Shown here piece by piece: positions 28,344 through 30,785 of a stretch of 64,000 nucleotides of DNA; position 1 is the stretch's first letter; every line of letters starts with the position of its first letter. Under the pieces are notes generated by a model, which searched no databases, was not told the origin of the DNA, and saw nothing but the letters and a program-made list of their open reading frames with translations. The stretch is from Pseudonocardia benzenivorans CB1190. Lineage in GTDB: Bacteria > Actinomycetota > Actinomycetes > Mycobacteriales > Pseudonocardiaceae. The DNA lies in NCBI RefSeq assembly GCF_000196675.2, contig NC_015312.1, forward strand, positions 7,022,501 to 7,086,500, given 5' to 3'. Made by a program: the position numbers and the translations under genes.

Positions 28344-29753
28344 TCAGCCGTGCGCGAGGTCGGTGAAGCGGCTGTAGTGCAGCTGGTGCGCGACGGTGAT
28401 CGTGCTGGTCGGGCCGTTACGGTGCTTGGCCAGGATCAGGTCGGCCTCGCCCGCACGCGGATCGTCGCGCTCGAACGCATCGGGCCGGTGCAGCAGGATC
28501 ACCATGTCCGCGTCCTGCTCGATCGAGCCCGACTCACGCAGGTCCGACAACATCGGACGCTTGTCGTTGCGCTGCTCCGGCCCACGGTTGAGCTGGCTCA
28601 TCGCCACCACCGGCACCTCGAGCTCCTTGGCCAGCAACTTGATCTGCCGGGAGAACTCCGAAACCTCCTGCTGCCGTGACTCCACCTTGCGCCCGGACGT
28701 CATCAGCTGCAGATAGTCCAGGATGATCAGCTTGAGGTCGTTGCGCTGCTTGAGCCGGCGCGCCTTGGCCCGGATCTCCATCAACGTCAGGTTCGGCGAG
28801 TCGTCGATGAACAACGGCGCCTCGGAAATCTCCGACATACGCCGCGCCATCCGGGTCCAGTCCTCATCGCTCATCCGACCCGCCCGCATGTCGGCCAGCC
28901 GGATCCGCGCCTCGGCCGACAACAGCCGCATCACGATCTCGGACTTGCTCATCTCCAACGAGAACACCGCGCTGGTCATCCCGTGGCGCACCGAGCACGA
29001 CCTGGCGAAATCCAGTCCCAGCGTCGATTTCCCGAGCCCAGGCCGCGCGGCCACGACCACCATCTGCCCCGGGTGCAACCCGTTGGTCACCGCGTCCAGG
29101 TCGGCGAAGCCCGTCGGCACCCCCAGCGCCACCCCACCACGCGAGGCGATGGCGTCGATCTCGTCCATCGTCGGCTGCAGCAGCTCCTCGAGCGGGGTGT
29201 AGTCCTCGCTCGTGGTCCGCTCGGTCACCTCATAGATCGCCGCCTGCGCCCGGTCGACCACCTCGTCGACGTCACTGCCGTCGGCACCGTGGTAGCCCAG
29301 CTGCACGATCCGGGTACCGGCTTCGACGAGCCGCCGCAGGATCGCCTTCTCCGCGACGATCTCGGCGTAGTAGGCCGCGTTGGCCGCCGTCGGCACCGTC
29401 GCGATCAGCGTGTGCAGATACGGCGCACCACCGAGACGGATCAGCTCACCACGGCGCTGCAACTCCGCCGACACCGTGACCGCATCCGCCGGCTCACCCC
29501 GGCCGTAGAGATCGAGGATGCAGTCGTAGACGGTCTGGTGCGCCGGCCGGTAGAAGTCGTCCGGGCGCAGGATCTCCACGACGTCGGCGATCGCGTCCTT
29601 GCTCAGCAACATCCCACCGAGCACCGACTGCTCGGCGGTGAGGTCCTGCGGCGGCTGACGATCGAACGGTGACGGCGAGTCGCCGCCCGGAGCGCCCTCG
29701 TCGGTGCGGACGGCACGCGGCCGCCCGACCGGCCGATCGTCCGACAGCGCCAT
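28344..29753 (-). CDS. dnaB: Replicative DNA helicase DnaB
   Basis: The hexameric 5'-3' helicase of the replication fork. 469 residues from ATG 29753, with a GGGGGTGA region upstream; a GTG at 29765 is possible. The N-terminal helical domain starts at PQDLTAEQSVLGGMLLS near 34, the linker ends near 175, and the RecA-like core has Walker A AARPGLGKST, Walker B LIILDYLQLM and SQLNRGPEQRNDKRPMLSDLRESGSIEQDAD (the arginine-finger region, core LRESGSIEQDAD). There is no intein, unlike several mycobacterial DnaB genes. It is downstream of the ribosomal protein operon but has its own SOS-box promoter. Confidence 0.96.
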   Translation of the reverse strand: MALSDDRPVGRPRAVRTDEGAPGGDSPSPFDRQPPQDLTAEQSVLGGMLLSKDAIADVVEILRPDDFYRPAHQTVYDCILDLYGRGEPADAVTVSAELQRRGELIRLGGAPYLHTLIATVPTAANAAYYAEIVAEKAILRRLVEAGTRIVQLGYHGADGSDVDEVVDRAQAAIYEVTERTTSEDYTPLEELLQPTMDEIDAIASRGGVALGVPTGFADLDAVTNGLHPGQMVVVAARPGLGKSTLGLDFARSCSVRHGMTSAVFSLEMSKSEIVMRLLSAEARIRLADMRAGRMSDEDWTRMARRMSEISEAPLFIDDSPNLTLMEIRAKARRLKQRNDLKLIILDYLQLMTSGRKVESRQQEVSEFSRQIKLLAKELEVPVVAMSQLNRGPEQRNDKRPMLSDLRESGSIEQDADMVILLHRPDAFERDDPRAGEADLILAKHRNGPTSTITVAHQLHYSRFTDLAHG

Positions 29754-29777
29754 ACGCAGCGTCACCCCCGACTCGAA

Positions 29778-29800
29778 AGCCTATCGAACTAAAGTTCGAT
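29778..29800 (-). promoter_or_regulatory. LexA (SOS) box and -10 box of dnaB
   Basis: TCGAAC-TAAA-GTTCGA at 29784-29799 matches the actinobacterial LexA consensus TCGAAC-N4-GTTCGA at every fixed base, extended by one more pair to 18 bases. A TAGGCT -10 box for dnaB (minus strand, 29783-29778) abuts it, so LexA would sit over the promoter. The start codon is 25 bases after the -10. Confidence 0.8.
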
Positions 29801-30245
29801 CCACACCCCGGACCGGCTCGCCTCGCGACGGCGTGTCGGTGAACGGTCGGCGGCACGGACGACGCCTTCCACCCCGGCGCGCGAAGAGTACGGACGCACC
29901 GGAGGCCGATCAATTCGATGTGTGCGCGCCCCTGGGGACGGCCTGGGGACGGATCTGCTCCGCCCCAGGAGCCGCTCGGGACCGCACTGTGGACAACATG
30001 TGGGCAGATCCCGAATTATCAGCGAAATCGCAGGTCATCCCTGTGGGTGACCCTGTGGACAAAACTGTTGGCGTGTCGCGATCTGGCCTGCTCTTCGGCG
30101 TGTCGCGCCGACCGCGGAAACAGTCACCCGGCGCGCTCGGGCTGTCGCTCGGCGACGCCCGTACCTCTGGACCGCAACCTTACGGCCACCGCTCGTCGGC
30201 GACGAGTGGAGCGTCACCGAGAGTCGCCCGCAGCCCGCGCACACG
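29801..30245. other. Intergenic region between rplI and dnaB
   Basis: About 450 bases with no gene. It holds the DnaA box cluster described separately and is otherwise unremarkable. Frames crossing it have no start with a ribosome binding site. Confidence 0.6.
29988..30062. promoter_or_regulatory. DnaA box cluster
   Basis: Two exact actinobacterial DnaA boxes (TTGTCCACA, both on the minus strand, read as TGTGGACAA) are at 29988-29996 and 30054-30062. Weaker copies are at 29999-30007 (7 of 9) and 30042-30050 (6 of 9). All four have the same orientation, about 210-290 bases upstream of the dnaB promoter. Confidence 0.7.
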
Positions 30246-30291
30246 ACAAGGGCGGGGTCGCGATCCCGAAGAACCGCAACCCCGCCCTTGT
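30246..30291 (-). terminator. Terminator of the rpsF-ssb-rpsR-rplI operon
   Basis: ACAAGGGCGGGGT and ACCCCGCCCTTGT form a perfect 13-pair stem about 45 bases after the rplI stop; GCG/CGC pairs continue it after one mismatch. There is no U-tract. Confidence 0.8.
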
Positions 30292-30335
30292 GACGGAGTG
30301 TGACCACGAACCGGGCGTTCGGACGCCCGCTGTGA

Positions 30336-30785
30336 TCAGCTGGCGACGACCTCGATGTCGAGCGTCGAGGTGACGTCAGGGTGCAGCCGGACCGCGACCG
30401 GGTGCTTTCCCACGGTCTTGATCTGGGCCGGCAGCTCGACGACGCGCCGGTCGAGCGTCGGGCCACCCGCGCTGCGGATGGCGGCGACGACATCCGCCGC
30501 GGTGACCGAGCCGAACAGCCGGCCCGAGTCACCCGCGGCCTTGGCCGTGACGGTGACCGCCAAGCCCTCGAGCTGACCGGCGACCTCCTTGGCGTGGCCG
30601 AGGTCGCGAATCTCGCGGGCCTTCTGGGCGCGGCGGATCGCGGCGACCTGCTTCTCGGCACCACGGGTGGCGACGACCGCCAGCTTGCGCGGCAGCAGCA
30701 GGTTGCGGCCGTAGCCGTCCTTGACCTCGACGATGTCGCCGGGGGCGCCGAGGTTGGGGACGTCGGCGGTGAGGATGAGCTTCAC
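30336..30785 (-). CDS. rplI: 50S ribosomal protein bL9
   Basis: 149 residues. The N-terminal domain [30 protein letters not shown] is the bL9 signature (core [16 protein letters not shown]) that binds 23S rRNA domain V. A long connecting helix at about 45-75 and a C-terminal domain with [14 protein letters not shown] follow. The start is GTG 30785. Last gene of the operon, 14 bases after rpsR, followed by a strong terminator. Confidence 0.96.

Follow-up and report, generated by a model that had tools for sequence, protein, structure and literature searches.

A predicted LexA operator at the promoter of the replicative helicase gene dnaB in a Pseudonocardia strain and most of its close relatives

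Introduction

The closest described counterpart of the locus studied here is found in Mycobacterium tuberculosis, in which a putative SOS box lies before dnaB (PMC8151990). According to the available text of that report, the dnaB transcript was raised after mitomycin C even in cells without RecA and with PafBC lowered, and this induction was partly PafBC-dependent, so that a simple RecA-LexA switch fails to account for the M. tuberculosis response. Its authors suggested LexA depletion as the cause of the RecA-independent induction (PMC8151990). A further input has been described by a study of DnaA, the available parts of which report five strongly bound DnaA regions in vitro in M. tuberculosis, one of them upstream of dnaB, and a DnaA mutant with weaker binding at the dnaB site that under-expresses dnaB (PMC7738170). 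DnaA ChIP was also performed in M. smegmatis in that work (PMC7738170).

For Streptomyces venezuelae, an initial search did not find the mycobacterial PafBC motif to be conserved (PMC9380542, 2022), and dnaB is absent from the main text of that study, as far as it is available. The accessible portions of three further papers (PMC2587704, PMC9578287 and PMC12702967) contain nothing further on LexA control of dnaB. Across literature titles and abstract openings, with Pseudonocardia-specific queries and most subscription journals outside the scope, we found neither LexA control of dnaB beyond mycobacteria nor regulator exchange at dnaB.

Here we analysed a 64-kb stretch of Pseudonocardia DNA (the window), which stops 10 kb short of one of the ends of a 7.1-Mb contig. 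An earlier note on this DNA had claimed that a perfect LexA box abuts the -10 element of dnaB, had predicted from it that this gene is induced by DNA damage, and had called for a scan of related genomes.

Results

Predicted operator and promoter of dnaB

The features of the dnaB control region, with the evidence for each in brackets, are as follows.

28344..29753, minus strand: dnaB, replicative DNA helicase, one uninterrupted frame with an ATG start (open reading frame and NCBIfam TIGR00665)
29762..29769, minus strand: GGGGGTGA, ribosome-binding-site-like, 8 bases 5' of the dnaB ATG (GGGGTGA kept in the genus)
29778..29783, minus strand: predicted -10 element TAGGCT (AGCCTA on the plus strand), directly abutting the operator (sequence and genus conservation)
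29784..29799, minus strand: predicted LexA operator (SOS box), TCGAAC-TTTA-GTTCGA as read on the dnaB strand (exact match and genus conservation)
29988..29996, minus strand: DnaA box TTGTCCACA (consensus match)
30054..30062, minus strand: DnaA box TTGTCCACA (consensus match)
30246..30291, minus strand: 21-pair hairpin 3' of rplI, terminator-like, without a T run (folding)

The open reading frame was identified as DnaB by NCBIfam TIGR00665, with 537.2 bits against a cut-off of 385.25. Its ATG occupies 29753-29751, at a distance of 25 bases from the -10 element. Translation might alternatively begin at a GTG (29765), but GGGGGTGA is spaced like a ribosome-binding site for the ATG, 8 bases before it. 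The letters at 29784-29799, TCGAACTAAAGTTCGA, match TCGAAC-N4-GTTCGA at 12 of 12 consensus bases, and the perfection of the box, its contact with TAGGCT and the distance of 25 bases to the dnaB start were thus all as the earlier note had described them. This is the single exact match in the 64-kb window; when two mismatches were allowed, five matches were obtained against 2.74 expected, and the exact one alone stands out.

No -35 consensus was recognised at the dnaB promoter. A sigma-70-like consensus scan of 29700-30400 returned one site, on the strand opposite to dnaB, and did not list the proposed promoter. The same scan listed no second promoter in the dnaB direction within the gap, which says little, since it also missed the proposed one. 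We found no likely candidate for an opposite-strand gene that the box might serve, the next gene upstream, rplI, being on the same strand as dnaB.

The spacer of the box is unusual. TTTA (dnaB strand) is one of eleven spacers that occur once among 51 genus boxes, and it is the sole one of the 51 with an A adjoining GTTCGA. The base in this position is T in 76% of 50 distinct boxed genus contexts, and in the other 15 exact boxes of the genome it is T in 20 of 30 halves and A in 4. An exact box, in the sense of 12 of 12 consensus bases, is therefore not necessarily the best operator, and the affinity of the predicted operator in the window may be below average, as its inner spacer base is the only A among the 51.

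Transcription unit and other dnaB copies

The hairpin lies between rplI, whose stop codon is at 30338-30336, and dnaB. The surrounding 96 bases have a folding energy of -57.2 kcal/mol (z -5.06), and a 60-base window below -35 kcal/mol was present in 47 of 48 rplI-dnaB gaps of the genus, a count made with no shuffled control. We also considered dnaB as the tail of an rpsF-ssb-rplI operon, which is unlikely given a hairpin after rplI, though this hairpin is without a T run. Probably, dnaB depends on a promoter of its own.

Further dnaB copies were observed. The second copy in the genome (G000:C5:13875-15203, L154), on a 67-kb contig, is 95% identical over residues 32-472; it has no LexA box upstream and seemingly lies close behind other coding sequence. 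The third copy (G000:C2:2251-3600, L162), on a 192-kb contig, is in three overlapping pieces, as if frameshifted. Plasmid dnaB copies were rejected as SOS targets, with no box at up to two mismatches in up to 600 bases before the seven copies checked. The presence of the boxless plasmid-borne copy on G000:C5 means that DnaB supply may be partly uncoupled. Plasmid relatives of dnaB also occur in Pseudonocardia, Mycobacterium, Streptomyces and Kitasatospora records, and dnaB-like stretches were noted at G002 C2:98891-99835 and at 98894-99898 of plasmid NZ_CP011869.1 (Pseudonocardia sp. HH130629-09). In a number of related genomes, dnaB is split near residues 245-253 and 412-416 inside long frames, in an intein-like manner; at these two places the dnaB of the window is uninterrupted.

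Conservation within the genus

The scan of relatives located the box (at most two mismatches) before dnaB in 55 of 60 genus genomes, and in 46 of these it is exact. Sixty of 62 genomes were read, G018 and G339 being left out; the tally stood at 51 of 54 boxed (42 exact) before G039, G338, G023 and G034, all exact, and the boxless G010 and G027 were added. Counts based on 54 genus regions (permutation, -10 placement, PafBC motifs and contexts) leave out L113, L137 and L138, the last of which is boxless. Later additions to the genus set were L113, L138, L365 (for L137), G338, G010 and G034. As a control, 20 permuted palindromes were run against the 54 regions and gave no hit at zero or one mismatch and a mean of 1.2 regions at up to two.

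A TANNNT element starts 0-2 bases 3' of the box in 51 of the 51 boxed genus genomes counted (1.0% under random placement) and lies 5' of it in none of them (2.4% under random placement). In the 50 distinct boxed contexts, the T, A and T of the -10 element, which were not selected for, are each conserved at 98%, and the spacer columns range from 34 to 76%. Eleven half-site columns reach 98-100% and the last 82%, an identity that is partly built in, as the contexts were chosen at up to two mismatches. GGGGTGA follows 7-18 bases 3' of the -10 element in 48 of the 51. At dnaB, the predicted operator adjoins the putative promoter.

LexA boxes outside the genus

The box before dnaB is common in the genus and patchy outside it. 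At up to two mismatches in the 500-630 bases read, it was present in 40 of 68 other genomes of the family Pseudonocardiaceae (mean for permuted palindromes, 0.6), in 13 of 43 genomes of the order outside the family (0.65) and in 5 of 27 genomes of the class outside the order (0.15). A few of these boxes are a long way from the start or inside probable coding sequence (e.g., L281, L284 and L293). Within the last 320 bases, again at up to two mismatches, 19 of 33 other family genera have a box. Among named loci, 12 of 79 were boxed: those of Saccharomonospora, both Amycolatopsis, Actinomycetospora, three mycobacteria, Blastococcus, one of two Modestobacter, Frankia, Cellulomonas and Sphaerisporangium, where the box overlaps the aligned coding region. 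None of the 28 named Streptomyces loci has a box at up to two mismatches.

The regions read came from 68 of the 113 matched genomes in other genera of the family, 43 of 75 in the order outside the family and 27 of 72 in the class outside the order. To these were added all but one of 80 named loci, the 5'-truncated L093 being excluded to leave 79. This out-of-genus sample consists of best-scoring matches and a hand-picked spread and is non-random; the named set overlaps the others (L024 = L256), and L253, L258, L267 and L166 were excluded as repeats of genomes already counted.

The arrangement differs between groups. In the 40 boxed family members of other genera, TANNNT lies on the 5' side of the box or overlaps its edge in 21, on the 3' side in none and in neither position in 19; the corresponding figures (5'/3'/neither) are 0/51/0 in the genus, 2/2/9 in the order and 2/0/3 in the class. 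This placement of the operator on different sides of the -10 element in different genera argues that LexA binding itself is kept. The absence of the box from 5 of 60 genus genomes, 28 of 68 other family genomes and all 28 Streptomyces loci indicates that LexA control is dispensable.

SOS boxes and SOS genes elsewhere in the genome

The whole genome (G000, 7.44 Mb, 6 contigs) contains 16 exact boxes, as compared to one for the pattern read backwards, and 69 boxes at the one-mismatch level, as compared to 16 for the reversed control. It is barely credible that the dnaB palindrome arose by chance in a GC-rich genome and has no role: one-mismatch boxes are fairly common there, but the dnaB box is exact in 46 of 60 genus genomes although its spacer varies, it recurs in another arrangement in the 19 of 33 other family genera, and exact boxes far outnumber their reversed control.

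Upstream of recA we found TCGAACAGGTGTTCGT, then A, then TAGCCT, and upstream of a dnaE2-type gene an exact box that reads GTTCGA-G-TAGACT at its junction with the -10 element, where dnaB has GTTCGA-TAGGCT. The layout of the dnaB promoter is that of recA and the dnaE2-type gene in the same genome. The dnaE2-type polymerase, on the minus strand of L010, had 'error-prone DNA polymerase' as its best NCBIfam match, at 545.7 bits, which is below the cut-off of 939 because only 495 residues are inside the locus. Exact boxes also adjoin a gene for an AlkB-like 2OG-Fe(II) oxygenase (L002) and a DUF222-HNH gene (L005), and at L006 one lies by a DUF2786 gene divergent from uvrC. Others are without an obvious SOS gene; one is seemingly inside an open frame (L003), and three stand before genes for a glycosyltransferase (L011), an oxidoreductase (L012) and a gluconokinase (L007). 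The genome encodes RecA and a LexA of 243 amino acids, residues 132-242 of which match a solved LexA at 186.8 bits, and upstream of lexA itself there are three boxes, two with one mismatch and one with two.

These neighbours bear on which regulator reads the palindrome. It has been argued, in the available text of the mycobacterial study, that ArsR regulators can bind a motif near the mycobacterial SOS box (PMC8151990), and a repressor of this type might act at dnaB instead of LexA. However, the same motif precedes the dnaE2-type gene, recA and (with one mismatch, twice) lexA in this genome, and we regard such a different regulator as very unlikely.

A less improbable alternative, which we nevertheless consider unlikely, is that LexA binds a genuine promoter here and represses it too weakly for a damage response, so that the site mainly tunes the basal level of dnaB. 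An essential gene such as dnaB cannot be tightly repressed, and the inner spacer base of the box in the window is unusual. According to the available account of S. venezuelae, damage left the genes that contain an intragenic LexA site unaffected, dnaE2 excepted (PMC9380542), so a gene occupied by LexA is not necessarily regulated by it. Against this alternative, the operator adjoins the -10 element in 51 of 51 genomes counted, as it does at recA and the dnaE2-type gene.

We consider it highly probable that the palindrome functions as a LexA operator, that it is placed within a promoter belonging to dnaB itself, between the -35 region and the -10 element, and that dnaB would be damage-induced with recA and dnaE2. 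The LexA control that the earlier note had proposed is supported at the level of sequence by the conservation of the operator, its adjacency to the -10 element, the layout shared with recA and the dnaE2-type gene, the LexA gene and the hairpin between rplI and dnaB. In undamaged cells, LexA would partly block the dnaB promoter; upon damage, RecA-driven cleavage of LexA would free it, and DnaB would rise along with RecA and DnaE2.

DnaA boxes upstream of dnaB

The motif TTGTCCACA, which we take to be the actinobacterial DnaA box consensus, occurs twice in the 64 kb against 0.06 expected, both times before dnaB and in its orientation, 189-263 bp beyond the operator. At least one such box precedes dnaB in 50 of the 54 genus regions; the figures for the family, order, class and named sets are 50 of 68, 20 of 43, 7 of 27 and 35 of 79, and permuted nine-mers gave a mean of at most 0.07. 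The binding of DnaA and the under-expression in the DnaA mutant of M. tuberculosis indicate that DnaA is likely a positive input at dnaB, and by analogy this is likely here too. The pair of boxes would probably let DnaA activate the same promoter that LexA is predicted to block, tying helicase supply to initiation.

The genome has 29 exact TTGTCCACA motifs. Of the 13 exact SOS boxes on the main contig, 4 have such a motif no more than 300 bp away, namely those at the dnaE2-type gene, L011, L012 and dnaB. For this proximity, the Poisson P was about 2e-4 with both site types confined to 12% of the genome, which is a chosen figure. At L012, the exact SOS box (G000:C1:6574625-6574640) is one base from a DnaA box, and one DnaA box is located before recA. 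The DnaA boxes noted at these places are 29988-29996 and 30054-30062 of the window and those at G000:C1 positions 5682405, 5689926, 6574615 and 4931550. DnaA and LexA may share targets in this genome.

PafBC-type promoters and possible regulator exchange

We also searched for TTGTCRGTG-N8-TA, which we take to be the RecA-NDp (PafBC) promoter consensus. At up to one mismatch, this motif was found before dnaB in 6 of 68 regions from the family, 13 of 43 from the order, 5 of 27 from the class and 31 of 79 from the named set, with a mean of 0.03-0.18 regions per set for permuted nine-mers, and it was found neither before the dnaB of the window nor in any of the 54 genus regions. Streptomyces accounted for many of the named regions, with the motif in 21 of 28. 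In 11 of these the nine-mer is without mismatch (TTGTCAGTG-N8-TA in L041, L042, L044-L047, L049, L052, L057, L063 and L091), about 100-230 bases upstream of the point where the dnaB match begins. In L275, L276, L177 and L307, the -10 element TAGAAC of a PafBC-type motif doubles as the left LexA half-site. By the strict definitions, regions with neither motif numbered 3 of 54 in the genus, 26 of 68 in the family, 22 of 43 in the order, 17 of 27 in the class and 37 of 79 among the named loci.

A looser PafBC pattern was present in LexA-less regions as follows: 3 of 3 in the genus, 6 of 28 in the family, 12 of 30 in the order, 8 of 22 in the class and 32 of 67 among named loci (permuted control, 0.12-0.39); it was devised after viewing the three LexA-less genus regions, so that the genus figure is not independent. 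Four of the five LexA-less genus genomes (G012, G045, G020 and G010) have the looser pattern and G027 has neither motif, and none of the 55 LexA-bearing genus genomes has it. As fresh tests, G010 speaks for the association and G027 against it, and 0 of 4 added LexA-bearing genomes match.

A quick DnaB tree (205 columns, 57 genus genomes and 6 outgroups, with G010, G018, G034, G338 and G339 left out) placed four LexA-less genomes at the base of the genus, with SH-aLRT support of 86-94 there and 28 of 54 inner forks open, and required one change of state. A single event may thus underlie the association, within the genus, of a missing LexA box with a PafBC-type site. In the genome of the window we found a PafC-type gene (143.9 bits) but just one exact PafBC motif, so the role of PafBC may be reduced or changed in this organism.

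The pattern of regulator sites around dnaB is clear in Streptomyces and in the genus and far from universal, and it is a more surprising part of the results than the dnaB box itself. The regulator at dnaB seems to be exchangeable, judging from these sites. Tentatively, and as a possible rather than a probable reading, we suggest that many actinomycetes keep dnaB under damage control while swapping the regulator. PafBC-type control would act in Streptomyces and the deepest branches of the genus, LexA in all other branches of the genus and in many further genera of the family, and both in some lineages, even in fused form. LexA control would have arisen at least twice, with the operator once after and once before the -10 element, atop a widespread DnaA input.

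Discussion

At the level of sequence, SOS control of dnaB has good support, and cells of the window's organism and of most of its close relatives probably make more DnaB when their DNA is damaged. The usual picture of an SOS response is one of repair combined with a brake on division. If true, a conserved damage switch on the replicative helicase would suggest that these bacteria also need extra helicase for the reloading or restarting of forks. At this one essential promoter, LexA sites alternate with PafBC-type sites, which offers a natural series in which to ask whether the regulator or the response is selected. The PafBC-type motif before dnaB in 21 of 28 Streptomyces loci also bears on whether PafBC works in Streptomyces.

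Such control is not wholly new: our analysis adds a gene to a known regulon, one for which the only site that we found on record is putative. The earlier note's description of dnaB as normally treated as a housekeeping gene needs a qualifier, as the available text on M. tuberculosis records both a putative SOS box and mitomycin-linked dnaB transcripts (PMC8151990). The operator is of the same type as that of the mycobacterial LexA regulon, TCGAAC-N4-GTTCGA, and M. tuberculosis dnaB is among the genes with a putative SOS box and a transcript raised by mitomycin C in that account (PMC8151990). The three mycobacterial dnaB boxes compared have one or two mismatches, whereas the genus boxes are mostly exact and placed before the -10 element; an exact dnaB box is present in L302 (family f8, probably the same family as those mycobacteria).

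The RecA-NDp/PafBC promoters of actinobacteria are, according to the available descriptions (PMC6789036, PMC5087735), likewise damage-response promoters, and in our scan promoters of this type are present before dnaB in many relatives. Unlike the LexA operator, they are activator-dependent and non-palindromic, and we did not find one at the dnaB of the window.

As in M. tuberculosis (PMC7738170) and in Caulobacter, where DnaA control of dnaB is described in the available text (PMC8203912), the window has DnaA boxes upstream of the gene. In contrast to both, these boxes are joined here with an exact predicted LexA operator on the promoter. E. coli uvrB, which in the accessible part of its description is under DnaA and LexA (PMC6015884), likewise has both types of site in one control region. 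However, uvrB is a repair gene that DnaA represses (PMC6015884), whereas dnaB encodes an essential helicase and is probably activated by DnaA.
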